Assembly: GCF_040436345.1 (NCBI RefSeq)
Contig: NC_133233.1
Location: 12,810,735-12,874,734, forward strand
Length of the DNA stretch: 64,000 nt
DNA from: Pagrus major
Taxonomy: Eukaryota; Chordata; Actinopteri; Spariformes; Sparidae
Direction: 5' to 3'
Position 1 is the first letter of the stretch. Every line of letters begins with the position of its first letter. The notes under the pieces are model-generated. The model was not told where the DNA came from, did no database searches, and saw only the letters and a list, made by a program, of their open reading frames with translations. Positions 2,665 through 42,027 of the stretch are shown here, piece after piece. Position numbers and translations under genes: made by a program.

Positions 2665-5600
2665 ATGGACTTTTCCAAGAACGCAGAGGAGAGGCCAGAG
2701 CCCTCTAAGGCAGATGTAAAAGGTAGGTCGAGTTTTTACTATTGATTGAACAAGAAATGCACTGACTTGATAACATAGCTGAATGTTTTATGGTTTTCTA
2801 TGTTTCTTCTCACATAGGGAATATTCCTAGCTGGCTGCAAGGCACACTGCTGCGTAATGGCCCCGGCATCTTTTCAGTGGGGGACACCAGCTACGACCAC
2901 TGGTTCGATGGGATGGCCATCATGCACAGCTTCAACTTTAAAGACGGTTGGTTTTGTATTTCTAACTTCTACCTTTTCTCACAAAAATAAAGAAACTGAC
3001 TGTTACTATAACATTAGGTCTGTTACAGTGTCAGTGAACAGAGCATGCTAAAAGACAACTTATACACATAGAAATTTAAAGAAATTTAAATGGTTTTATT
3101 TTTCTTTACAGGTGAAGTGATCCACAGGAGCAGATTTCTCAGAAGTGACACCTATAAAGCTAACATGGCTGCAAACAGGATAGTGGTGTCGGAAATGGGG
3201 ACAATGGCATACCCAGACCCGAGCAAGAACTTCATTGTCAAGTAAGCACGCTCTTCATTTTATTCAGACCAGCTCTTTCATATTATATATTATATGTTAT
3301 TTATAATTATTTTATTCCTCTTATTTAATCACTTAGATTCACTTAGATTCACTTAGCAAACTTAGAGTTGCAGTATTTGCAAAACAGTTCTTTACACAAA
3401 AAAAATGTTAGTCAATTAACTTTTCAACAAGTTTCTCTAGGTGTTCTAGTATTAGCATAATCAGTCTTTTGTGATGGACTACCCCCCCTGCTGTTTACCT
3501 TCCTGACTGCTGTGGCTTTACAAATGACCCACACATTTCTAGGGGACTCTGACTGTGAGTAAGTCATGTTGTTTGTGTCTATATTATTCCTAAAACTGTC
3601 TTCTTCTTAGGGCTATAACCTTTCTCAACCACACGGTGCCTGACTTCACTGACAACGGGGCAAGCAATTTCATGAAATATGGAAACGACTATTTTGCCAC
3701 CTCTGAAACCAACTACATCCGCAAAATTGATCCTGTGACCCTCGAAACTCAGGACAAGGTAACGTCTTCTGCCGATCTTGATCACTCGCCAGTGATCCTA
3801 TTGACACACATCCAAATGAAACATTTTCATTTTAGAACTCATGAGTTGCTGAATTGTTTCACACAGGTGGACTACTTGAAGTACCTGCCGGTAAACTTGG
3901 CTTCATCCCATCCACACTATGACAAAGAAGGCAATGCCTACAACATGGGAACTTCAATTGCAGAGAAGGGCAAGACGAAATACCTGCTGTTCAAAGTCCC
4001 TGCTGTTGCAGAGAAAGGTATAAACCCCATGACCTGCTCTACTTTGCCCCCTGAGAGCTCTCTTCTCCAATCAGCTGTACTTTGTAAAAAAACACAGCAC
4101 AGGATTATGCAAATGTAGGTGAACCACAGCTGGGCCATGATAAAATGTGCCTGTTGCCATTGGTTCCTTCTGTGAATGTGAATAGAAATATATAAATGCA
4201 TCTTCATAACAGTATACTTTTCAGACACTGACACATGTTGCATACCCTTTAGGTTTTAAATAGTCTAAGTTTTTATAGAGGGACAGAGTGCCCTGTATTA
4301 ATGATTAACTGAACCATTAAATGCATTTTCTTTATATTTACCACAAATTAATAAAATGCTTTGACAAAATAAGTGTTTCTTTTCTTTAACTGATGTCTTG
4401 TGTTGTTATTTTCTTTAAACCTTCAGACAAAGGCAAGAATGTGCCTGTGCTGAAGAACGTGGAGGTGGTCTGCTCCATTCCCTGCCGCTCGCTGCTCACA
4501 CCCAGCTACTATCACAGCTTCGGCATGACTGACAACTACTTCATCTTCATCGAGCAGCCTTTGAAACTGGACATCCTCAAGATGGCCACTGCATACATGA
4601 GGGGGGTCAACTGGGCGAGCTGCCTGAAATTCTGCCCTGATGAAAATGTGAGGGGTCACTGCTGTCTGTTTCTGTTTCTGAGTCTACCAATGTGATGGAC
4701 TGTAGATTTTAATTTCTTCTTCTGGCATCACACTGTGCTGTCTTTCTTAATGCTTTATTTCTTCAACAGACTCTGATCCACCTGATCGACAGAAAGACGG
4801 GCAAAGAGGTCGAGACAAAGTACTACACTGGAGCAATGGTCGTCTACCATCACGTGAACGCTTTCGAGGATGACGGTCACGTGGTCTTCGATGTCATCGC
4901 CTACAAGGATAACAGCCTCTATGATATGTTCTTCATGAGCAAGTTGAATGAAAACACCCAGGATGATGCCTACTCTAAACCAGGCTACAAAAGATTTGCA
5001 CTTCCCATCCACTCAGACAAGGTAGGATTTTTTTTTTTTTATGAATTTATTCTCCTTGAAATTCGAGAAGATGTTCCCTTCAATGCTTAATATTTCCTTT
5101 TTGTCTGTAGGGCATTGCTGTTGGAGAGGACCTGGTGAAACTCAAATACACAACAGCCAGTGCTGTGAAAGAGAAAGAAGGCAAACTAATGTGCCAGGCA
5201 GAGGTGCTCTGTGAAGGTAAAACCAATGCCACTCAAACAGGAAGAGATATCTACTGAAGATAGCATGCTAACCAGCTAGCCACAGGCCTGAAAACCTCTC
5301 TCTCCCACTGGTCCAAAGCTCTTGTGCAAGTGGTGTAAATTTCAACACTCCCTTGGAAGTCCAGCTAGCTGCCTGGCTAACTTAGCTAAGAAGCTAAAAG
5401 TAGCTACGTTCACGGATGTATAAAGTGGATATTCATACTCAAAACAAATAGGAGGTAGCATATTAAGGTTAAACGCTAACTGCAGCCAACTATAGGTGTC
5501 GTTAACTAGTTAGCTCAGTCAGCCATGCAGCCAGCAGTATGGACTGGGAGCTCGGAGCACCAGAGAAGTACAGGTGTTTACACTTCTAGTACAGGATATT

Positions 5601-12196: not shown

Positions 12197-12985
12197 TTAG
12201 CTACCCTCAGCTTGAGTCTCCTTTTCTTCAGCTGGAGAGTCCTGGCTCTTCTCAGCGTCTTCACTCTCATCACCTGACATAAAAGAGAGAGGCAGACAGT
12301 CAGTTTAATGCACAAGTTACTGTGTACAAAGTCAGCGATGCAAAAGAGGACGGTTGATTCAGCGAGTAAGTCACCAGGAAAACAGCATGAACGGAAGTCA
12401 CCAAGGTGGAAGAAGAAGAACCATAAACTGATGGTTTTCAGACATGTTTTAAGAGAAATAAAAATATCAGTTTATAAACAATTAGTCTGCTTTTAGTGCA
12501 CGTACATGACTCTGGACAGCGAAAAGAATTAATATTAAGCAAAACATATTTTTGAGTGAAGTTGAACTCATTTTCAGTATACCTTTTCTCCCTTGGTGGC
12601 GATTAAGAACATTTTTTGACTTCATACAATAAGTAGTTGTTTTAAAGTAACAACATGCAGACATTAAAACTTTCTGAGTTTGGCACCCCCTGGTGGTAGT
12701 ATTACAAAAGACAACGCACTGTCCACTGTCCATCCACACTCCATAGTCTACATAGATGTAGACACCAGACAATATTAAGCTGTTTGCCGTGGCACTGTGA
12801 AAATATGTGCTGTTATTACCATGATGCCTCTCACCTGACTTGTTGATGTTGAGCTGTGCCAGACTCTGTGACAGGTCAGCTGGCTCCTGCCCTCCAGGGC
12901 CTGCTTGGATGTCATGGATGGCATTCCTGCGGCCGGACCGTCGAGAGGCGATGAAGTCCTCATAGGTCGCCTCCACATCCGTCAT
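12197..12985 (-). CDS. pkia: cAMP-dependent protein kinase inhibitor alpha
   Basis: This small intrinsically disordered protein binds the free catalytic subunit of protein kinase A as a pseudosubstrate and carries it out of the nucleus. Coding exons are 12985-12835 and 12273-12197 (minus strand), with donor CAG|GTGAG and acceptor GTCAG|GTGAT joined in phase 1. The product is 75 aa, against 76 in human PKIA. The N-terminus MTDVEATYEDFIASRRSGRR keeps the amphipathic binding helix, and the pseudosubstrate core RRNAIHD is intact at 19-25. The nuclear-export segment LAQLNINK lies at about residues 42-49. The acidic tail is encoded by exon 2. The start is the ATG of MTDVE, although an in-frame ATG lies three codons upstream. 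An acceptor-like GTGTTAG just before it suggests an upstream noncoding exon that I could not locate. The gene is convergent with bco1l and divergent from zc2hc1a. Confidence 0.95.
12682..12696 (-). promoter_or_regulatory. CTCF-like motif, reverse, in the pkia intron
   Basis: The reverse complement reads CCACCAGGGGGTGCC, one of the best forms of the vertebrate CTCF core. It lies in the intron between the two pkia coding exons. It is motif evidence only. Confidence 0.45.
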
Positions 12986-15871
12986 CGCTAACACACCTCA
13001 CCATAGCAGGGCCTGGCACACACAGCGGCACACACTTACCACAAGTGCACACAGACACACATGGACACAAATGAACACATTCGCCACATTTTTTTTAAAG
13101 GAAAATGACAGAAACGCTGAGAATTTGTGCGATTTGTCCAAGGCAGCTTCACACACATGGATGCATCTGCAGTTTGTGTTGATGTGAAGAAAGTGACACA
13201 TGCACTCATTCAATACATCCCTCCCTCCTCTTATCTTATGACCTAATCCCCGATTAATCTATTTTAATCTCAGTCTAGGGTACAGGCGACACCAGTGACA
13301 CGGAGGAAACAAAATTCTGCAGGAGGAATACTGGGCAATGGAATGAAAGCACAAATGAGGGTGCTGTTGAACTGATGCAATACAGCAGCCAAAAACACAC
13401 ACTCAAAGGGGTAATTATGGCACAAGGGAGGACAGTGCTGTATTCAAATGTCATCCCACTTAGAGCAAGCATGGAGCGTGATCAGAGCTGTGTTGCCGCA
13501 GAGATTTAGGTTAAACCCCTCTGTTGACATTTAACACTCTGTATCAATCTGCCCTTCAGCACTGAGCAGGTTCTGACTTCCCTGCCCCATTTTCACTAAT
13601 TAAAATCCATCAGGCAGAGATTTTTCACAAACTTTATCCATTTTAAATATGTGCACTTGTATAATGTAGAAGAATACAAAGAAAAACAAGCCTCTCTGAA
13701 ACTCAAAAGTCTAAATTTGGGGAATTTTATAGGGAAATTTGTAAAAATGACCTCAACTCCCACATGCATCTATAGTTATTTCCAGAGCTGTGCAAGCTGT
13801 GATTGACCGCGGCTATTTTTGGACTCCTGCTCTGTCATCATCTGAGCACGCTCCCACTCAGCTGTCATTCTCAAAATGGTGTCAAGACGGGCAAGACCCA
13901 ACAGATGTTGTCCATGCACGATTGTCAGACTCAACATGGGGGAGCAAGAGACACAAGATGACTGTTTTCCAATATGAAAACGTAGAATGAGTGTTATCAT
14001 CTCAGAGTCAAACAGTGATGCTGAGTCATCGTCAATAATGTGTTGCTGGGATTTGAAAGTGCCCTTACAAGCACTCCAAGTCATGTGTCAACAGACATAT
14101 GAGGCACAAAATCTTTTATATGGAACATTTGCAGCTGAAAGTGACAGAAGATTCTTGACATGTGTTTCCTGTGCTCATATTCTATGAAATATTAATTTGA
14201 CTGTTTACATAATTTAGTCACACTGTTGCACCCATGATGTGGAACATCAGCAGTGCGTGTGTGCATGTGTGTGTCAGTGTGTGTGTGTGCATGTGTGAGT
14301 ACATGTCCTGCTCTTGTAGAGGCATGCTCGAGCTGTCCTTGTGGCTTTGCTCCCATGTGGGAACCAGAGCTCAGCTGGCCTGAACAACAAAACATCTAGC
14401 ACACAGACTGCAAGCAAACAAATGATCAAATCGCTGAATTATACATCAGGCCAGGGGGCTCTGCCCTCTCTGTCAATGACTAAAAAGTGAAAAGAAAAAA
14501 AAGCAAACTAGGCCGCTCCTGGTCTGCAACCATTTGATTTGTTGTGCTGCCAAACAGAAAATTAGCAGTGAGTGTGGCAGCGGTGAGAGGAGTGCAGGAA
14601 TGGAATCCAGTAAACTTATGCCAATGTTATTCTAGGTGGCCGGGGCGTAACTGGGAATGATGCCCAACACCCTCTCTGTTTCTCTCTAATGCACAAACAA
14701 ACACTCCTTCACATCCATATAGCAAAAAGTACAAAAAATATTCTTAAATATAACATTACCAATATTTCAAAACCATTTCTATGTGAGTGTTATGATTTGT
14801 GTTATTTCCACAGCACCCTTAATCTATGGGCTACGGGATTATGACAGGATTAGTTAAGCAATTTATTAAACGCCCTTGCCTTGTGTCTGTATGAGCTGTC
14901 ATTAGTCCACTGAAAACCTTTATTAGAGAACAGTCTTAATAATTGATGTCCTCTTGCATTTATCATATATTAAGTGCAAAGTGGAGGCTCTACAGCGCAT
15001 CAAGTATGTAATCGTGCGCAATGGAGTCCTCTAATAATTTTCTTTTGTTGACACAGTAAAGACCCAGCCTAGTCTTTAAGACATGCCATTAATGGTGCAG
15101 TAGGATCGACATGCTCACACTGATTGCAATGATAAATCAACAGCCATACTGTATGCCTCTCTCTCTTGACAGACCCCCACAGAGCTCAGTCAGTGCCAGT
15201 AAACGCAGCCTGCATGGATATTACACAGAATTATGCTACCAGACACGCACACTCTAGTCCTACAGTTATTATTATAATCAGCAGGGTACCTGTTTGGGTT
15301 TAAGGGCTTCCGTACATTCGCAGGGGTCAATCACATCAGCTTGAATGCTACTTCGGTATTCCCCGTTGCACTCACGAAAGAGGATTTACCAACATCAAGC
15401 TCATGCCAGAATAGGCTACTACAGCTTCCGGGTACACATTTCAAAATAAAGCCCTTATTTGTGAACTAATACAGTTTGTCACTTATGTCAGCGTTTGAAA
15501 TGAACTTTTTGCTTATTCAGCTTTTGATTTATTTAGTTTAATATTATAAATCAGATTGGTACTTGCATTGTTTCAATATATTTATTGGTGAAAATAAAAG
15601 AACTAGGATAGTAAAATACATATGTCGCAGTGGTATCCAGAAACTGTAGTGCCAACTGCACAGTTTGCATATAAGAAAGATAATAGGCTATTATCATTTC
15701 GTTATATTAAAGCTGCCAATCACGTGGTTGAGGAAAACATTAGACTGTTGAATAAGAAGTCTAAAAGGAGCTTCCTCATTCAGATAAACCCAGAAGGAAT
15801 ACTACCCTAACAATTTTCAATGAAAGCTAAAAGGACAGATGAACAGACAGGGCAGTTGTTGTTTATGTCTG

Positions 15872-23100: not shown

Positions 23101-24014
23101 CTATATGCAGGATTTGTGTCACTGTAGCAGTTTTACAGTAGATGCAGTTCCCGGTATATTTTCTCACCACCTGTTTTGTCTCTAGACTATGTCCAGTGCC
23201 CCTACTGTCAGCGGAGGTTCAACGAGAATGCAGCTGACAGACACATCAAGTTCTGCCAGGAGCAGGCTGCCCGTATGCCCAGCAAGGGCAAGACAGGAGA
23301 TTTAAAAAAGCAACCTGCTCGCACACAGGTACACACATGCACAGGTGGTGACTGTATGTGTACACTAACAGACAATTTGTGTTTTTGTGGAAACATAATC
23401 TGTGAGTTGACTTTGGTTGAACATTTGAGGGCTGACCACAACCCTCATTTAAATCTGGTTGTCTTTTGAACATAAGACACTTTAACAGTGTTAGCACTTG
23501 ATAGTATGAAAAGATTATTTATGATATGTTGAGTACACGCACACACATACGTTTTTGGTTCTAGCTTCCCTCCAATCATGAAAACAGCTTTGTTAATCTA
23601 CAGTTTTCATAACTGAGTGTATGTATAGATAGATACACAGCCACTCTCACCCAAGTACTGTACTTGGCCAGGCAATTCTTAATTCCATGTAATGCCAATT
23701 CTTTATGGTTAAGAAGCATTGTTTTTAATCCATGACACTTCCTTGTCTGTTATTACCATGGTGAGACACCTACTTTGCAGCAGGCATAGAATTACCACCG
23801 TCACTTAGCAACAGTTAATTAGGCAACCAATAAAAGCAGCAGGGTCCAAATGATTTTGGTTTTAGACGTCTGCTTTTTCCAATTTGATGAGAAAAACATT
23901 TTCCATTGCCAATTTCCCAGTGTGCCATGTAGGAGTACATTTTTATATTTGCTATGGATCAGTCAGTTTTTTTTTCTATTTTCGTTTGTAAAGCCAAACC
24001 ACGTTTGGGCATTC

Positions 24015-24164: not shown

Positions 24165-27074
24165 TGGCACTTTTCATGCAGTTTTGCAGCACAAAGTGCC
24201 TCACAGAGGGTAAAAACAAACAAACAGTGCAAGACAACATCATAAAAAACCCCAAGCCTCCCACACCCATAAACATACACACAGATACACAGTTACATAC
24301 ACACTCACGTACATACATAGACATACTGACATACATACACCCCCACACACACAAACATACACACACCCACAGACATACACTAGTTATTGCTAAGGAGACA
24401 TGGCTCGGCACAAAGATCAGAGGTGAGGAACAGCTACCTTTGGGGGCCGTGCACACCGAGAGGAATCAAGGTCCATGACTGCAGGGGCGCCACCAAAAGG
24501 ACCGCCCCAGCCCACTCTCTCTCTCTCTCTGTCTTCAGTTCAAGCCTTCTACTCCTGCAAAGAAGGCTGACGCTCCTGCTGTGTCAACCATCCCTTCAGC
24601 CTCCTCTCGTTTACCCCAGAGATCAGGCCTTGGACAGCCCAGTGGTGAGGCCACAGCTGTGCTGATTGTGCATTCTGTGTATTTGTGCCAGATTTTTTTG
24701 AATCATGCAACACTGGTTGTGCTACAATTATACATGGACCACAGTGACATGTGTATGTATGACTTGCTAATTTTTTTTTTTCTCTTTCTTGCTCTAGGAA
24801 TCCCATCTAGTAAGACCTCTTCTGCAGGTTCAATGAGGAGTAATCCCTCCGGCCTCACAAGCCCTCCATCAGGGTCATTACACGCACACGCACACATACA
24901 CTACAATGCCAGATAGCCGTACAGACAAGTCATAGGCATTTTTGTTTGCTGCATTTGCACATTATTGAGGAAAGTATAATGTTATATGTATATATGTTTG
25001 AGTCACTGTAGCCCTGTTATGATCTCATAATTACATTTCAAAGTCCTACTAACTGTATATTAGGAGGGGGAGAAATGTATATTAATGTAGTATCCCCAAG
25101 CCATTTTATATGTAGTTTCTGTGTTTCTTGTATTCAATAGCGACTACTTTATGATAGAAAGACATTATCATAAAACATTAACACTATATTTGACTTAACT
25201 GATGGCATTATAAACATGTCACATCTGTGAATATCATGGGTCAGTGGCAGCTTAAAATTTCTGTCTATGAACCCAATCCTCCAAGTGGTTTGCATTTGAC
25301 ACGTACTTGTCTGGATTCTCCCCACATTTTTGCCCTCAGTGTGGGAAATAAGACCCGAGCAGTGAGCTCTGGCTATGGCTCTGTGAGGAATGCTCAGTCT
25401 GGAATAGGTCTCAACAAGAAGAAAGTAGACACCTACATATCTAGGTAAGCCACTTCACTCACACATTTGCTCCAAAAAACGCAATACTGCAAGAATGAAT
25501 GAAAAGCACAATACAAGCACCATACAGTCTAACTAAACTAACCTGACCTCTTGTGGTTTGTTGGTGTATTACATACACTTTCTGCTCCCATTCTGTAAGC
25601 TGTTGTGTAACTGTATGCAGTTTTACAAAATTCAGCTCTAATTTGACTTACAGATATTGTAAATTTGGCTATAGTTGATTTGAATTTGCTTTCTTAGTTT
25701 CTTATGTGCATGGTCTAGCAGAATGATGCCTTAAACAAAAGAAACTATGCAGCTTGCATAATTATTATGTAAAACATTATGCAAGCTGTACAGCTTAAGG
25801 TTCTGATTAACATAGGTGATACTAAGAAAACACTCTGATTAGTGTCACATACAATCATCATTGATGTGGAAAAATGTGTACACCTGGTCAGTCCTCACTT
25901 GGATGAATAAGGGTGATTTCACACCTGTACTTCGGTTCATTTGGTCCAGACGAAGGGAAAAATATTTTATTTGTATCATAACATATGTTGTTTCTCAAAA
26001 ATGTGTAACTCTAAAAATGTATACGTATGGACTCTCAGAGTTGTGTTTTACAAGTTTCAGTTGTTAAAACTGTGTTGAAAAAATAAGATTGCCTTCTGAA
26101 AGGTTCACGATCACCAGATTAATTTATTATTATTGATTTAACCCTATGAAATCGTGCCAAAATCACATATCTATTATCAAAAATCCTGTGGTTGCTCAGC
26201 CTGTGTAAGAGTCACCTTTTTGAAGCGGTTTCGGTTCGGTGGGCACCAGTCCTATTCCACTTTCACATCTGTCTAAACAATCTGCGCTAATCAGGAACAT
26301 GCACCAAGGTCTGTTTTATCCAAACCAAACATGTTAGGTGTGAAAGCACCCTAAGAACATATTATCATATATATATAGCTTGTATACATGGACACAGTCA
26401 AACTTTACCTAAACGTAATTGCTTTTACTCAACTTTATACAGCATATCCCAGGTCTTACAGAGTCACGTATAATCTCACCACTTGGCAGGAGGCAAACTG
26501 AATAACTCTCAGTCAGTGTTGTTTCTTATTTAATATAATCAAGGGAGAGAAACATTTCCAAGGTCCCATCTTATCTTTAACCCTGAGCACCACAGCTTTC
26601 CAAAACAAAGCATGCCAACTACCACAACCATGAATGAATGAAGAGCTTGAAGTATCCCTTGTAGGACAGCTTGAAGTACTTAATCATTAAACTGAAATCC
26701 CTACCTACTATTATCACAAAAGTAAAACATTTACTTCCATCCATTTTAAGGGGTTTGAGGTAATTTTTTGTTTGCATGTTTTATCACTGTCTTATATTGA
26801 CTTATATGATACACTAATAATAGTGAGGTGTAAAGAATCTATTAAAATCATCAACACTGCACTGTAATATCATTAATAACAACTCAATGTACGTTTTTCT
26901 TAAGCTTGCTGCTTGGTCAACTTTGTTACATTTCTCAGGAATGATGTCGATAGCGTGAACGAAGTTGGAAACGGCGGGATGAAGAGCAAGTTCTGTCATG
27001 CTTGTGGGACCAAGTACCCTGTTGAATCCGCCAAATTCTGCTGTGAGTGTGGGATCCGGAGGATGTGTATCTGA
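17108..27074 (+). CDS. zc2hc1a: Zinc finger C2HC domain-containing protein 1A
   Basis: The molecular role of this vertebrate protein is poorly known; it is probably a zinc-dependent binding protein. Ten coding exons join in frame: 17108-17126, 17769-17842, 19054-19170, 19806-19832, 22716-22857, 23186-23328, 24539-24644, 24798-24873, 25340-25444 and 26939-27074. They give 314 aa, against about 325 in human. Finger 1 is C19-x2-C22-x11-H34-x3-C38 and is split by intron 2. Finger 2 is C131-x2-C134-x11-H146-x3-C150, in the block CPYCQRRFNENAADRH that is near-identical to human. A proline run lies before it. The C-terminus forms a zinc ribbon with C289, C292, C304 and C307 (FCHACGTKYPVESAKFCCEC). 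Two adjacent ATGs occur; the second (17111) has the better context, which would give 313 aa. Exon 4 is a 27-nt micro-exon, and exon 8 uses a weak donor (GG|GTCATT) chosen because it alone keeps frame with exon 9. Confidence 0.95.
20613..21090. repeat. Possible inverted-repeat element in zc2hc1a intron 4
   Basis: CAACAGACTCCATTTATA near 20667 recurs inverted as TGTAAATGGAGTCTGGTGG near 21038. An imperfect hairpin or MITE of about 0.4 kb would span these arms. The ends are not defined. Confidence 0.35.
21800..22508. repeat. Probable interspersed repeat in zc2hc1a intron 4
   Basis: The text resembles sequence often seen dispersed in percomorph genomes, such as AAGGTCCCATGAGGGACACC and the AGAGGCGGAACGAAACTGTC block before the ATTC tract. 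The family is not assigned and the boundaries are approximate. Confidence 0.35.
22509..22558. repeat. (ATTC)n microsatellite
   Basis: About twelve near-perfect ATTC units lie in zc2hc1a intron 4. Translated frames across it (FIHS repeats) are artefacts. Confidence 0.95.
24012..24052. repeat. (CA)n microsatellite
   Basis: A CA tract with single-base interruptions in zc2hc1a intron 6. Confidence 0.9.
24126..24240. repeat. Interspersed repeat in zc2hc1a intron 6
   Basis: The text reads (CAAAT)n, then CTTTATTTATATGGCAC, then CACAAAGTGCCTCACAG. This order recurs in many fish genomes as the end of a retroposon-like repeat. A CA/TA-rich cryptic repeat follows to about 24380. Confidence 0.5.
25908..26356. 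mobile_element. hAT-like MITE in zc2hc1a intron 9
   Basis: The left end, AAGGGTGATTTCACACCTG, is the inverted repeat of the right end, TTAGGTGTGAAAGCACCCT. The interior of about 450 bp is noncoding and contains GGTTCGGT/GTTCATTTGGTCCAGAC-type segments. The ends match a widespread fish MITE family with TTAGGGTG termini. The target duplication is unclear. Confidence 0.7.
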
Positions 27075-30111: not shown

Positions 30112-33100
30112 TCAGGTCGCCAATAGTGTATTCAGCATCTGGTAGCATCCATTCATGGTAGACACGATTGCCTTAGCTTTGCAAAGTTCCTTCCTGATTG
30201 TTTTCCGTTCGTTCCTCTTTTGTCTCTTTGCCATCCTCTTCGTCTTCAACCTCACCTTGGGTTCTGTAGTCTAGTCAACAGTAGTCAACAAACAAACACA
30301 ATGTACCAATTAGTGTTGTGTTTAGTTTTGTAATCTCATGAACATCAGTTAGGTTAAAGTGCATATTTATCCCTTATCAATTTAAGGTCAAACAAGGCCC
30401 ACTCCTTTTTCAAAATCTGACTGAATTCATCTGAAGGTTCAAAACAAACCATGCGTGAGACAGTATTTTAAATCTATGCTGGTCTGGTGAGGCCTGAGGC
30501 CCTACAGTGGTGCTGGTTTGCTCTGCTGTATGACTCAGACCTCAACTATGAGCATGAATCATCAAATTTGATTCTGATCCGAAACTGTTCAAAATTAAAT
30601 ATGTCACTGAACCAGGATTGGAGTAGAGTGTGGCATCCTGTGAAATCTTTGGAAAATACTCATCACTTAAATTCCAATTTGTTTCATTTCTACAGCATGT
30701 TACAGAGCTAACAAGCAAATATGGAAACATTATGTCTGCACAGTTTATGACATTTCAGTGTGACTCAGAAAGAAACTTGAAAACCTTGAGGGGAATATGT
30801 TACCAAAACCAAAAGGCTTCCAAATGACTATGTTGATTTCTAGTTCCTCGTTCCGATAGTCCCTTCACAAATGTTTTGTTCCTTACAGTGCACAGAGGCA
30901 TAAAGTCGACCTCCTGTTTTCTGTTGTAGCTTGCCTCGCACCAAGTTGTCTTGTGTGAAACAAATAGACTAATGTTTGGATACTCACACAATCGACCGGC
31001 TATGTTCAGTGAGTCACCCACTACAACAGCCTGCCAACATTCCACTGATCTCCCAAATAATGCCAAAGTCTCTCACATAGAAAGTAAAATAATTTCATAA
31101 GAAAAGTACAAAGAAGAAACTACAACTACACATTTAGATTTATATTAACATGCTCAGACTTACCGGCCTCTTAGGACAAGGGCAACGTATTGAGTTTAGG
31201 ACGGATCTGGCCAGTGTTTCTGTGTTGGGAAGCCCTAAATTCTTCATTTTGCACGATAGGCTGTGCAGGTTGCTCACAATAACCTGAAAAACATCGGTAT
31301 ATGAGTCATTTGCAACATGTCACTCAGAGTCTACACCCTTTGTGACCACAAAAATTCGACCCTATGATTAGTGGCACAGTCAATGATCTCTATAAACAGA
31401 TATCTGCGCATGAATGTAGAAAATATGTTGGTATCAGAAGTGTTCTGTTCCCGCGTGTAGTCTGAGTTGTATTGACCAATCATGTTTGAGCTGGTTTTGG
31501 CTGCATGCAGGTAAACAGATGAATACAGAGCTAAAGAGGTGGCTGACTGTGTGGAAGACAGTGTTTCACTGGACGAACTTGGCCAAATGATGGATGGATG
31601 CTCCAGGGTAGGCTTGCTGTCTCAAGCAAATCCATCACACAGGTGTTGAATGAGATTAATATGTGCTTTTCTTGTGGTCTGGAACAGTGAGATCGTTGGA
31701 CTTGCCAACCCTTATGGGCCCCTTTGAGGTTTTGAATCTGCCTATGTGTAAAGAAGTTTTGGAAATGGAGTTGCTGCTGCATATACAGCGATGAACCCCA
31801 ACATTAACAACACTGACAGGTGGAGTGAAAAACTGGATGATTTCGTCACAATGCAATGTGCTCCTGAGAAACTTTTGAGAAACTTCCTACTGAACATCCT
31901 CAGGATGTGTCAGAACAAGTCCGGTCCATGGAGGCCCCACCTGGCTACCCACAGGACTCAAATGATCCACCGCCAGACACCACAGGACACCCACAGAGTC
32001 CTGTTGCCATGCCTCAATGAGTCAGACTCAAGTCTGATCCATGGATTGGACTTGTTCCAGCACATCCCAGAGGTGGTCAACTGGGTTGAGAACTGGGGAA
32101 ATTGGGGGGCCTTGAGCTCTGAACTCAAGGACTCCCCCCCCAACTGAACAGTTTTTGCAGTGTGGCAGGGCACATTGTCCTTCTGGGGTGGGTAGTGCCA
32201 TCAGGGAACGCTATTGCCACAAGGTAATGAACTACCACAAGTATTTGGGTAGGTGGTGCCAAGACCCAAGCTTTCCCAATGAAACATTTTATTGGATCAA
32301 GATGATCAATGTTAATCATTTGACTTGTCAGTGTTTGTAATGTTGTGGCTGTGTATGTACATGCCAAATAAAGAGCAGGGGAAGGGTCTCTGTTTTTATG
32401 GTCACCTAGTATAAATCTTTGATAACATTTTAGGCTCAAAAGCATTAGAAATGATACCAAGCAAATGACTTAATAAAAAGGAAAGGAAATACATGTACAT
32501 AAAAAACATTTTAGCTTACATCTACAGAATAATTATTACTCACCACCACATCGTTGGACGTGCAGTTCTGTAGCCTGTATATCTTCTTAGGGCAGGATAT
32601 GGTTTGCAGCAAGGTTGTGATATTTTCTCTCTTGAATGAATGGAAGTATTACAGTGGTAGATATTAGTCACACAAATACAGATTTTACAGAATAGGGCAG
32701 CTAGTTTCAAGTCTAAACTTTTGTTAATTATTAAATTGTCACCCACCATCCACTATCCACTATCAGTTTTAATCTGATTTACTTTTGTTTGTTTGCTTGA
32801 TGTCTCTGTTTATACTCAGTATCACTGAAAATAAGGACCTCCCTCAACTGGTTCCCAGAGTCTTTGAGGTCCTATCTGTACGAAGGCTGATTGTTGAATC
32901 TCACTCCCAACTTGTCAAATATTGACACTTTGGAATGACGCCCGACCCGACCTACAATCCCAAAGCGTGGGTATTTGACCCGTTGGGAATGAGACACAAA
33001 AATCAACTGTCTTACAAATTGGACCTTTAAATAAAGGTTTGAATGAATGAATTATCTTTGAGAAATCATTTTAATGTTTTGAGGTCATGTTGAAGGTGTT

Positions 33101-33764
33101 AGGTGCTCTCTCTCACAAGTTTAGCTTAAACCTGCATGTTGATGGGAATGATTCCCCATGAGAGTATCTTTTTCTGACTTCATGTAAACGTGCAAACCAG
33201 CTTGTTTCTTTGTTTTGCTTTAGTTTCCCTTGAAAAAATGTTCAAAAAAAAAAAAAACTAAGGAAGGGGAAAAAGTTAACTAAATGCACAAAAACTGGTA
33301 AACATTTAATACCTAATATTAGGTTGCAGCTGCTTTTGCATGATGCTGCTCTAACTTGTCTGCTTCTTTTTACAGTATTTACGTCCCCTCCTTTAATGAT
33401 GAGATTTCAAACCAGACATGATTCTGAATCTATTCTCTGCTCAAAGTCTGTGGTGCATCTTGTTCTCCAGTAGATTGGATTGATCCCATGAGCTGTCATT
33501 TCCTGGCCATAATCCCTGCCTCTTCTCGATAACAATAAACGATAACAATAAAAGTAGATTTCCCTAGATGGCAAATTAAATATATAAATGAACTTTATTG
33601 GTGTCTTACTTACGGTGTTTTCAAGATCAGTGTGGACGGTTGCCATGTAATCTTTCTTAACGTCAGTCGGTGGCCTTATGGTGTCACAGGACAGAGACAG
33701 AGATAGAGGTAGAAGCAGAAAAGCAAGAAGACTGATGCGAAGAAGAGGCTGACAGTTTGTGGTC

Positions 33765-33812
<48 letters not shown>

Positions 33813-34304
33813 GTCAGTCAGCGGATCCAAAACATCTTTGCATTTAATACAGTCTAACTTTTTTTTCATGTAATGAACTCTAATAACACTTGGGTTCTTA
33901 ACATCCATTCATTCCAGTGCAACTTAGTTCCTGTGGACTGCATGGCAGCATGATCAGAGCAGTCTAAACCTCCCTCTCTCCACTCCCACTCACTCTATTG
34001 CTGAGACAGTTCTAATTATTTTTTTGATGATCTCTGCCCACGTAACAGCTAAAAGGAAATTACAATGTTTTTCACTTTGTCAACTAAGTCAGTGCCCCTG
34101 CCATGTCACAATGCTATATGTAACTCTAGTGATGGAAAGTAACTTAGTACATTCATTGAAGTACTTGTACTTTAAACAGGGATGATTGAAATTTAACATA
34201 CAAAACACATTATCAATTTATAAAATGTGATGCATGATTAGAGAACAAAGCACCATGCAGTGCGTAAAGTCATTGGAAACTATGTTGCTTACACGTGAAC
34301 GCAT
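30112..34304 (-). CDS. il7: Interleukin-7 (divergent teleost form)
   Basis: This secreted short-chain four-helix cytokine supports lymphocyte development through IL7R. Five minus-strand exons, all phase 0, join as 34304-34293, 33748-33614, 32630-32544, 31283-31164 and 30270-30112. They give about 170 aa, against 177 in human. Exon 2 encodes a strong signal peptide (SLLAFLLLPLSLSLS) followed by CDTIRPPTD. Exon 3 contains CPKKIYRLQNCTSNDVV, exon 4 contains SNLHSLSCKMKNLG, and exon 5 has a basic KRMAKRQKR stretch and ends LCKAKAIVSTMNGCYQML. The last exon resembles the human C-terminal helix (LCFLKRLLQEIKTCW). Mature cysteines are at 25, 62, 72, 89, 112, 114, 148 and 160. N-glycosylation sites are N52 (NIT) and N71 (NCT). 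The position next to zc2hc1a, transcribed toward it, is the conserved IL7 location. Exon 1 (12 nt, ATGCGTTCACGT before GTAAGC) is the weakest part. It fits the human pattern of a very short first coding exon but could be wrong. Confidence 0.82.
31798..32347. mobile_element. DNA-transposon-like element in il7 intron 3
   Basis: The left end, CAACATTAACAACACTGACA, is inverted at the right end, where CACTGACA reads as TGTCAGTGTTTGTAATGTTG. The arms are about 22 bp and the span about 550 bp. The interior carries fragments reminiscent of widespread fish elements ending in CACTGACAGGTG, but no intact frame. Confidence 0.6.
32896..32998. repeat. Imperfect palindromic repeat in il7 intron 2
   Basis: TCTCACTCCCAACTTGTCAA at 32899 is repeated inverted as TTGACCCGTTGGGAATGAGA at about 32974-32993. 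The arms extend roughly 40 bp around a CGACCCGACC centre. A hairpin-type short interspersed repeat seems likely. Confidence 0.55.
33769..33805. repeat. (AG)n microsatellite at the il7 exon 2 acceptor
   Basis: About 18 AG units on the plus strand read as CT in the il7 transcript. Only 20 nt separate the repeat from exon 2, so it supplies the polypyrimidine tract before ACTGTCAG|CCT. Confidence 0.9.
34127..34178 (+). mobile_element. Fragment of a fish hAT-like MITE (AAGTACTT type)
   Basis: GTGATGGAAAGTAACTTAGTAC followed by TTGAAGTACTTGTACTTTAA matches the start of a common teleost MITE rich in AGTAC/ACTTTTAC words. The fragment is short; a longer relative begins at about 35490. Confidence 0.55.
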
Positions 34305-34309
34305 CAGCA

Positions 34310-35140
34310 ATTATAATCCAATAATAGTCTAAACTATAACACCCTGAAAGTGACTGTTTGTGTGTTGCACTATCACCTCTGCACCTCAACATTACAAGTA
34401 CATTACAAGTGGAACTCAAAGCAGTCTCCAACACGGATGTTTCTATTCCTGTAAACCAGAAGCCAATTCCCGTAAATCTCAAACCTATTTCAGTTTCCAT
34501 CTGACTGGGAATTATTTACGCGGAATTCCCCTACTTGGAAAACCATTTAAGTCTCCGACATACAGCAAATCAGCCAGTCGCTCGGCGGAGAAGGCAGTGG
34601 GACGGATGCGTGTGGAGTCGACTCCGCGGTAAGTTTGGAAAACACTGCGTTAGACAGTACAGACCGTGCATGTGTGCTTTATCCGTCCAACTCTTACACT
34701 GACTGGACTTTGGCTTTAATTCGGCGCGTATTTGGTGTCGTTAAAATCAGTCTAATTCGGTGCGTCACCGCTGTTAGGCCACTTGAGTTAACCTACGGGC
34801 AGCACTCTCACTGTACTCACCATTGGTCATTCTTCATTCATATTGACCGCGGGCTGGAGCTGGAAACCTCGCGCGTGTCTTCATGGCTGCCCAGGTGCTC
34901 GGTCAGCTCGGCTTCCCACCGTGGAGACAAACACACTGGTCCTCTCACTGTCGGTGCGGTTCTGGTGGCTTTTCGAGCTCGGGCATTACAGTCCTTTCCC
35001 CACGTCCTGCGTAACACAGCCGTGCAACCACAGCATGTGATTTTTACTTCCGTCCTCCCCACCAGAGGTTTCGCTTTACATCCAGATGAACTAACGTGTG
35101 AAACGTGTTACACCTGTGGTCAACCCTGAGATTGGATTTT
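34310..35140. other. il7 upstream region, G+C-enriched
   Basis: The region above il7 exon 1 becomes G+C-rich with several CpGs between about 34560 and 35060. It is a plausible il7 promoter. A plus-strand splice donor, CTCCGCG|GTAAGTTT, lies at 34630-34631. Reading frames through the block match nothing I recognise. Confidence 0.35.
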
Positions 35141-35489
35141 TTTTTAATTATTATTATTCTTTTGCTGGCATCCCTGGTTGTTGTGATGGACACTTGTACC
35201 TCACAAGTGTTTTGTGGCTCATGTGGTGGGCACCATGTGGTGAGCATATATCAAATGCCCTCAGTGAGTTTAATTCATTCATTCATTCTCAGTGCCCACA
35301 GCCTCATTTTGTGGACCTTGGATTGTTCTTTTAACTAGGAAGGTAGTGAGTCAGTGTGGATGTGTCACTGATCACATTACTGATTTGCTCCATGTTTGGA
35401 AATGGATGAGTTTGAAGACAGCCCATGGTGCGTCACAGCTAGTACGGTCAATAATGAAAAATGCCAGTATTGAAATGTAACTCAGTAGA

Positions 35490-36078
35490 TCTCCTCAAGT
35501 TTTGTACTAAAGTACCACTTTGACGAGATACTTTTACTACATTTCCATTTTATGCAACTTTATACTTCTACTCCACTACATTTCCGAGGCAAATATTGTG
35601 CTTTTTACCCTTCCTGTCCAGTGAGAACATGTATTGTTGAATGTTTGTGATGAGCTGAAGGATGAAGTGTTCCTTTATGGGTTGAGAAAATTCTCCTCCT
35701 TCTAAAGCTAAATAATCTATTTAGAAACCATCTTGAATTAGCTGGATTTGCATCGTCACAAAGCCGAAAACAATGTGAGAGCCTCACATGACAGTGAATC
35801 TTTGTACAGTATGATTATTTTACAGAATACGATGCATTGCTTTAGATTAAACTACACAACAGTCAAGTAGTTAGCTCAACTATAAACGACTTCAGCAGTA
35901 AAATGCAACATACACATGAATGCAGCAGGAATATTAATCCAGAAACATCAGAGGTAATAGTAAAACACTGACAGGGACTAAGTACTTTTACTTTTGAAAC
36001 TTTAAGCATTCTCCCAACGTGTTATTGCTACTGTTACTTAAGTAAAGGATCTGAATACTTCTTCACTTCCACAATTAA
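35490..36078. mobile_element. hAT-like MITE remnant (AAGTACTT type)
   Basis: Contains TACTTTTACTACATTTCC, TTTATACTTCTACTCCACTA and a terminal TTACTTAAGTAAAGGATCTG-AATACTTCTTC block, all typical of a widespread percomorph MITE. The middle, at about 35620-35960, is diverged. Confidence 0.6.
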
Positions 36079-39000
36079 AAATAACCCCTCAGATTTTCAC
36101 TCTGCTTTTTGGAGCAGTTCTGTCACTGAAACACTTTTACAAGACAAGAGTCTGATTTCCTCAGTATGTCACCACCTTCTGAAATACAAACCAGTTTCAG
36201 GGACACATCAACCTAATGGACCTTTTCGGTAAATGTTCGGCTGTAGTTGTGTTTTTTGTCGTACCTGCCTTTTGAAAAAAATAAACAAAATAAGGATTTT
36301 TTGAACTTTCAAATGTTCAATTACATCCTCAACTTTATCTACATACATACACGCACACGACAAACGTTCAGTCACCTTTAGTCTTTAATTTGTCCTTTGG
36401 AGCAATTAAATAGTTTTGTCTCGCCAGTCTAGTACCACACCTATGCACATATGAAGATAACAGCTCAAGCAATAAAGGTCATTAAGAAACATTAAACACA
36501 CTCTCTAGGCAGAGGCTCAGCTTATGCATGCAGGCTACTGGCATCATTAAGATTTAGCAGCAAGTGCAACTGTGCATTCAGTGAAACCGGACTAGAATGA
36601 GGAAGTATATCGAGAGGAAGCATTAAAAAAGAGAAGAGAATGCAAATGAAGACAGTATTGATGTAATTTATGAGTTCACATCTGGACTGAACATTGATGG
36701 TTCGTCACTACCGCTGTAGATAAAATCAAATGTTTTTCAGTAGGCTTTCCTGTCTAAAATCCTAAATTTCTTTGTCCAGTGTCAATTAACCTTGTAAAGG
36801 TGTAAATTCTTCAGATATTATCCACCCAGAATGTTATTTTCTATTCGAAACAGGACAGGTGGGGGACGAGCAGGACAGAACATCTGTAGCTGAGGCACAG
36901 ATGATAAATATTAGAACCATGCATTTCACTCACACCTACAGATAACAGACTGTCACTGTTTGCTGCCAACTTTGAATTCACACACAATAAACTCAACTTT
37001 TTGCTGCGTAATCTGCATAGTTGCTGTGCTACAGCTGATCCAAGGGGCTTTAGGTAGTTTATTAAGCTTGAGAAGAAGGAAACATTTCTAAACCCATACA
37101 GGAACACTTAATCCCTCAGTATATCAGAAAAACAGTCAACAAATTTGGAGATACATTTTTTTCTCTCCACTAGACGGGAACAACTGTACTACTGCTTGTA
37201 TCCTTAAATTTGAGTCTGTATCGTCTAGTATTGATCCTCTGCTGGCATGTTTAAAAATCTGCATAGCAATAAAAGTATTAAAACATGTGTGTGTGCATGT
37301 GTGTGTGTGTTACAGTGCTGGAGCCCACAGTTATTAAAGACATCCATCAGATTATGACAGTGGTGTCAGGAAGCAGTGCGGCGTGGGACCCAGAACGTGA
37401 TCTGATTAACCATGACAACAGCAATCAAACACACAGATGATGTTTCTGAGCAAGATTCCTCTTGTTTCCTGGTGCTTAGTGATTCACTTACAAAGTATGT
37501 GTCAGGTGTACTGAGACGCAGATCATGGAAGGTGGTAAAGTTATTACATTATTTTTCAGTGTGACTGTGATTCATACTTTTCCAATTTTTGTATTATTCT
37601 GTAACGTTGAGGACACATGTAAATCATCGGAACAAGTGCACGAAACACCGCAAATGGTCATCATTGTTTGTTTGTTTGTTGTGGCAAGGGTTCCAGTTGG
37701 GCGATGTTTGCTATGTGCTGACAGGAATGTAGTCAAGTATTTCTGGGTTGCGGTACGTACAGTACTTTGTGTCTTCTTTCTCAAGACAAAGAAAGGTACA
37801 ACCACCAATCATAGGATAGATACTGGAATGCCTTTGAAAGTTTTATTTGACCTCAGGTATTACAGTAAATGTAAATGTAACATGACAGATACTGTAACCT
37901 GTCACTCTAAACAGGTTGAGAATACATTTTTTACTAAAACCTGAATAATAAAATAAGTAGTAACTTTATTTATAAGTTTTTAAAAAAGACAAATAAATTA
38001 ATCAAGGCACAGACCAAGCAACAAGAGAAAGAAAAAGCTGTGCTGACTCAGGTTGCATTTTTGCTCAAGGTCGTTCATTTACTCATTTGACAAAAAATAG
38101 ACTAAAATAAACATTTTGAGGATAGTTGGATGTGGTTTGGCCAGTGATGAGAGGAGGCATTGATGACAGCTGCTGATGGGAAACAGGTCTTTCATAATGC
38201 TGGGAGGAGATTCAGTGCTGGAGGGTTTTTCAGTGAGAAAAACCATCTCCTCTCCAAAATAATAGGTGACAAGTCAGACAATGGTCAGATAGATTTGTGG
38301 TTCGTTGTTGTTGAGTTTTCTTGGATCATTAAATGGCCACATCTGTGTTTTGGCTTGTTTTGGCTCAAGTCATGTTTACTTACATGAAACGTGCTGACCA
38401 TGATGAATGTGTTTTCTCAACTATCCATCCTGGTCAGCGGCAGCGTCTAGCAGATAAATCTGTCGAAAGAAAATGAATCGCCAACAGTTTTGGCAATTGG
38501 TTAACCATTTCAGTAATTTTTCAAGCAAAAACATCCAACTTTTGAACAGGCTCCAGCTTCTTGAGGTGGAAACAGTCAGCTTTTAGACTCAGTGCTATGA
38601 TGAAGGCAGAAACAGCTGGAAGCTTTAATGAGTAGCCATGTTTTGGTACTTACTGATCTCGTTGAAGGAATGCAAACTGAATGTCTGGTTTGAACCCTCT
38701 GAAGTCCTGTTGGTAAGGGGAAACACATATTGACGGGGGGAACAGACTTCAACAAAATGTGGATAAAGGAGTTCTCCACTGCCGCCCAAACAGCTGAATA
38801 CCAGTTGAAGTCAAGCCGGCTACATTATTATGCTCATTTGTGATTCTAATAAAATATTCTAAGCGCTGTATCGTAGGCCACTGGACTTGAGAGGAGTTGC
38901 AGGCTTTTAAAACTCTGCTGTGCGCTCTGCTATGATTGGCTGTCACTCATCAGTTGCCTCCTATGAAGAGTTTCTGCTGACGTATTCAGATCGTTTACTT

Positions 39001-40739: not shown

Positions 40740-42027
<1,288 letters not shown>

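Follow-up and report, generated by a model that had tools for sequence, protein, structure and literature searches.

A candidate il7 gene beside zc2hc1a in Pagrus major, with a protein sequence leaning towards TSLP

The window, by which we mean the whole 64,000-nucleotide stretch of Pagrus major DNA analysed (contig NC_133233.1, C19 in an assembly of 786 Mb and 25 contigs), contains a five-exon candidate cytokine gene on its minus strand, with open frames of two neighbours to its left. The outer anchor is a pkia-like frame on the minus strand (12482–12997), in which a PKI domain was recognised from 78 of the 171 residues (Pfam PKI, E 4.6e-19). Closer to the candidate lies zc2hc1a on the plus strand, represented by a frame with a C2HC zinc finger (23128–23469; Pfam zf-C2HC_2, 27.2 bits with a cut-off of 27) and by a zinc-ribbon-like frame (26904–27074) that probably holds its C-terminal end. 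This end, near 27074, lies 3 kb from the candidate's stop codon, and the two genes converge. Elsewhere in the window, plus-strand frames at 3594–5090 belong to the carotenoid oxygenase/RPE65 family (3594–4118 by Pfam RPE65, E 1e-11, the rest by eye), and a minus-strand frame at 40864–41193 resembles a piece of a Tc1/mariner transposase, for which Pfam gave no match.

Human IL7 and ZC2HC1A presumably share the convergent orientation seen here, and we take STMN2 to be the neighbour of human IL7 on the other side. A search for stathmin as a right-hand anchor gave, among the 14 matches listed, none on C19, the chromosome of the candidate; the STMN2 flank is a feature of the human IL7 locus and not of the IL7 protein, and the candidate locus is without it. 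The earlier note had placed the gene exactly where IL7 sits in tetrapods, a placement that agrees with the zc2hc1a/pkia side but not with the STMN2 side. On human 8q21.1, PKIA, ZC2HC1A and IL7 are named as nearby genes in an excerpt from an association paper (PMC4807782).

We examined the minus strand from 35500 to 29500, translated the exons from the coordinates of the earlier note and scored splice sites with vertebrate matrices, ranking them against the AG or GT sites of the window. The revised model joins the coding part of exon 1 (34837–34821), exon 2 (33731–33614), exon 3 (32630–32544), exon 4 (31283–31164) and exon 5 (30270–30112) into 166 residues, with intron phases 2,0,0,0. Exon 2 is open and would encode the core of the signal peptide, the first mature cysteine and the helix A region; its acceptor, 17 bases downstream of 33748, scores 3.1 (top 3.5% of AG sites) and its donor a modest 1.9 (3.5% of GT sites). 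The remaining exons are open and in phase 0: exon 3 (acceptor 1.4, donor 5.3) holds two cysteines and both N-glycosylation sites, exon 4 (acceptor 3.1, donor 6.4) holds, in mature numbering, the TSLP-like Cys65 together with Cys88 and Cys90, and exon 5, behind a modest acceptor (−1.3, 16.7% of AG sites), holds a basic linker, the C-terminal Cys-x11-Cys region and a TGA stop. A GA dinucleotide repeat (33768–33812, CT on the gene strand) lies just upstream of both candidate acceptors of exon 2, so that its length might influence the choice between them.

Exon 1 contributes MKNDQ and two bases, a phase 2 end from the ATG at 34837 that is compatible with the acceptor at 33731. Its donor at 34821 (ATG/GTGAGT; score 6.1, top 0.23% of the GT sites of the window) is the sole donor scoring at least 4 within 200 bases of open frame from the ATGs between 36800 and 33760. 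The exon falls inside a CpG-rich stretch (34501–35000, strand not assigned) that is probably promoter and 5′ UTR, where the observed/expected CpG ratio is 0.98 compared with 0.37 for the whole window, and which is the only such stretch in the profiled 33001–37250. It is also the least certain exon, because the proposed start codon has a weak context, with T at −3, and two short upstream ATG frames (34827–34884, minus strand) overlap it and end within it. Such frames resemble what could occur in a translation-limiting 5′ UTR.

The first exon at 34304 and the exon 2 start at 33748 proposed earlier were dropped on splice scores and on position relative to the CpG-rich stretch: the acceptor at 33748 scores −5.0, a value equalled by 40.5% of AG sites, and the donor at 34293 scores 1.7. 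The description of the gene as having good splice sites throughout thus fails, as does that of all exons as phase 0, intron 1 being phase 2 in the revised model, and the length of about 170 residues becomes 166 in the best model. What survives of the five-exon minus-strand structure is the exon 2 donor (33614) with exons 3–5, whereas the first exon and the beginning of the second are replaced. An ISRE-like GAAACTGAAA (34488–34497, minus strand) and a κB-like GGGGAATTCC (34522–34531, minus strand) fall within intron 1 of the revised model, and the window has 11 occurrences of the first pattern and 6 of the second, so they were given no weight. Rfam gave no match at gathering score.

The predicted protein begins MKNDQCLLAFLLLPLSLSLS-CDT, a hydrophobic and signal-peptide-like start as judged by eye and from mean hydropathy only, and has two N-X-S/T sites (NIT and NCT) and a Cys-x11-Cys close to its C-terminal end; the signal peptide, cysteines and two N-glycosylation sites described earlier are borne out to this extent. 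Eight cysteines are found in the candidate mature protein, at positions 1, 38, 48, 65, 88, 90, 124 and 136, alongside six in human IL7 (2, 34, 47, 92, 129 and 141) and six in human TSLP (6, 41, 47, 62, 82 and 109), numbered in the letters used for the comparison. In order and rough spacing the candidate matches all six of each. Taken through Cys88, its steps are 37, 10, 40, 36 and 12, compared with 32, 13, 45, 37 and 12 in human IL7, while the last TSLP step is 27 as against 34 or 36 in the candidate. The final Cys136 has a counterpart in IL7 but none in TSLP, and Cys65 has one in TSLP but none in IL7. The last two cysteines are separated by a step of 12 and stand 10 residues short of the end, the values in human IL7 being 12 and 11. 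An IL7-like C-terminal helix had been proposed, and these two cysteines agree with it in spacing and in distance to the end, but the protein taken as a whole mostly aligns better to TSLP than to IL7, as described below.

The exon lengths modulo 3 are concordant with those of tree shrew IL7. The length of exon 2 in the candidate, 118 nt, is not divisible by three and those of exons 3 and 4 are, the comparison applying to the revised model only. In an excerpt describing tree shrew IL7 (PMC4063794), the frame is kept in transcripts that omit exon 3, exon 5, exons 3 and 5, exons 3 and 4, or exons 3, 4 and 5, and might be lost in those that omit exon 2; the tree shrew gene has six exons there, but the candidate has five coding exons.

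Both strands were searched for a layout modelled on human IL7, in which the cysteines follow in order at its steps to within 6, introns separate them, a Cys-x11-Cys lies close to a stop and the first cysteine is preceded by a hydrophobic stretch; thresholds and exon length ranges were set in knowledge of the candidate, so that the counts flatter it. In the strict setting a single locus in the window fits, the candidate itself, through two chains identical but for the exon 3 donor, for which 32520 also satisfies the cysteine and intron layout. None of 1000 order-3 Markov windows contained the strict layout, and the last three exons were reached in 5 of 1000. A looser layout, with a tolerance of 8 and admitting the weak acceptor proposed earlier, succeeded in 21 of 1000. 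In the genomic 100 kb surrounding wdr36, of which 7500 bases are N, there was no full fit in either setting; in the loose one, two loci satisfied all four exons and failed at the hydrophobic, signal-peptide step.

Profile searches did not recognise the protein. The Pfam IL7 model, run on the assembled protein, gave no match, nor did the TSLP model (PF15216), in a search in which human IL7 and human TSLP were recognised alongside; the only Pfam matches of the candidate, TBCA_PH and DUF6639, were weak and below cut-off. Applied to the genome, the IL7 model had no match, and 14 control genomes were likewise silent. A search of the PDB returned three matches (E 0.22 to 1.9), and the N-terminal part gave three more (E 0.6 or worse), with no cytokine in either set. 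The gene is single copy: four of six genome matches are exons 2–5 of the candidate, the other two having E values of 4.76 and 9.77.

Global alignments, judged against shuffled sequences, leave human IL7 and human TSLP tied with BLOSUM45 (8 and 11 of 5000 shuffles as good, respectively) and place TSLP ahead with BLOSUM62 (41 of 5000 for IL7 and 0 of 5000 for TSLP). The ten references were compared in eight settings, four global and four local, with 2000 shuffles each. Human and mouse TSLP rank first and second in all four global settings, each with 0 to 5 shuffles as good, followed by human IL7 (15 to 68), IL21 (59 to 79), IL15 (204 to 242) and four others (at least 432), mouse IL7 being at the level of noise (384 to 940). 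This lead held with the basic linker masked or the cysteines fixed. Local alignments gave 9 to 42 for mouse TSLP, 40 to 63 for human TSLP, 96 to 324 for mouse IL7, 199 to 802 for human IL7, 371 to 513 for IL21 and at least 1080 for the other five. With TSLP left out, human IL7 was the best of eight references (2 of 500 shuffles as good). In hhalign comparisons no shuffle in 100 equalled the TSLP pair, compared with 72 of 100 for the IL7 pair and 80 of 100 for IL21, with the TSLP match shifted out of register at its N-terminal end. Split by exon, the candidate shows its strongest signal for TSLP in exon 2 (29 of 2000) and for IL7 in exon 5 (68 of 2000). Reversed controls gave a z of −2.5 for TSLP and 123 of 1000 as good for IL7. 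Among the other γ-chain cytokines considered (IL2, IL4, IL9, IL13, IL15 and IL21) the best z was only 2.1, for IL21, and these were set aside. Human IL7 itself aligns to human TSLP with 68 of 1000 shuffles as good and to IL9 with 466 of 1000, so the method misses true relatives.

These alignments place the candidate sequence in the IL7/TSLP branch, leaning to TSLP, while its locus and last segment are those of IL7. Its likeness to interleukin-7 (human, PDB 3di2) lies in the position near zc2hc1a and pkia, six ordered cysteines, exon lengths modulo 3 and a last segment that carries Cys-x11-Cys close to its end; it differs in the lack of a profile match, two extra mature cysteines, the basic linker, a count of five coding exons where IL7 has six and a mouse IL7 alignment that is noise. 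To TSLP (human 8zeu, mouse 4nn5) it is alike in the first helix region (VKKDYMATVHTDL in comparison with IKAAYLSTISKDL), in the counterpart of Cys65, in a basic run preceding the last helix and in its top scores in most alignment settings; it differs in locus, human TSLP presumably lying at 5q22, in that TSLP has only one cysteine in the last helix, and in giving no match to the Pfam TSLP model.

We also looked for a separate TSLP in this genome. WDR36, which we take to be the neighbour of human TSLP, was the one TSLP neighbour searched; its fish counterpart was located on C12 (Pfam Utp21), and the candidate is on C19. Within 100 kb around wdr36, which includes two N runs of 5000 and 2500 bases, tblastn gave among the matches listed only weak ones, many of low complexity, and no convincing TSLP. 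The Pfam TSLP model had three matches in the genome, the best with E 3.14 and none above cut-off, which is weak evidence of absence because the 14 controls were silent and the model misses the candidate too. According to excerpts of reviews, fish lack a known TSLP (PMC6323851; PMC7658486) and none has been identified in zebrafish (PMC9138301), while the TSLP receptor gene is listed as present in that species in another article (PMC1963337). In an excerpt of an evolutionary survey TSLP appears first in monotremes, and the wording on IL7 contradicts itself (PMC8226699).

The zc2hc1a/pkia flank, the lengths of the exons and the spacing of the cysteines give good support to an IL7-type cytokine gene at this locus, and on these grounds the earlier proposal of a cryptic IL7 gene is upheld in part, against it standing the silent Pfam IL7 model and the whole-protein alignment that mostly points to TSLP. 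We consider the candidate, with a probability of roughly 0.84, to be the single-copy il7 of a ray-finned fish, which would encode a short-chain four-helix cytokine from the IL7/TSLP branch that is secreted, glycosylated and held by disulphide bonds. Its being instead an assembly of exons by chance, or a decayed gene without a protein product, is very improbable: the exons are short and diverged with no profile match, the exon 5 acceptor and the exon 2 donor are modest, the start context is weak, and the looser layout does arise in random windows, but 166 codons are open across five exons, the donors of exons 1, 3 and 4 score 5.3 to 6.4, and the gene sits at the expected locus with a strict layout that no random window reproduced.

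An identity as the fish TSLP orthologue, or as a co-orthologue of IL7 and TSLP serving as one ligand for IL7R-α with either the γ chain or CRLF2, is unlikely but has more to commend it. The BLOSUM62, ten-reference global and hhalign comparisons all favour it, as do the pairing of Cys65, the limited genome search that gave no separate TSLP, and the excerpted reviews in which fish have the TSLP receptor but no TSLP. The locus, however, is that of IL7, Cys136 is paired in IL7 and not in TSLP, and the Pfam TSLP model is without a match. Human IL7 is equally good with BLOSUM45, human TSLP scores weakly in local alignment, the hhalign match is N-terminally out of register, and the comparisons ran through ten references and several settings; a real fish TSLP could moreover escape a model that misses the candidate and is silent in 14 controls.

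If the candidate is il7, transcription would start in the CpG-rich stretch, the mature protein would begin near CDT, and the predicted fold would be a four-helix bundle. By analogy, the product may signal through the IL7 receptor α chain and the common γ chain (JAK/STAT5) and so support thymic T-cell precursors, a role that is taken from IL7 biology. Fugu IL7 was reportedly described by Kono in 2008. An excerpt of a review (PMC4929537), citing a 2008 fugu paper, treats IL7 as already known in fish, and IL7 is recorded from cartilaginous fishes in part of another article (PMC6238376). Fish IL7 itself is therefore not new, and the leaning towards TSLP is the interesting part. As the candidate has diverged beyond the reach of profile searches, recognising it from its position, its exon lengths and the layout of its cysteines helps annotation. 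According to an excerpt of a review (PMC9138301), il7-deficient zebrafish are apparently normal except for fewer T precursors, deficits of il7r or jak3 are more severe than loss of il7, and crlf2-like mutants are impaired in T-cell development; a ligand with features of both IL7 and TSLP would be a testable candidate for this open il7/crlf2 point. It is conceivable, if rather improbable, that this IL7-locus gene of fish has retained the form of the ancestor shared by IL7 and TSLP, with a product acting on both IL7R-α/γ-chain and IL7R-α/CRLF2 receptors, and such a ligand would then provide at least part of the unfound TSLP signal that fish receptors expect.
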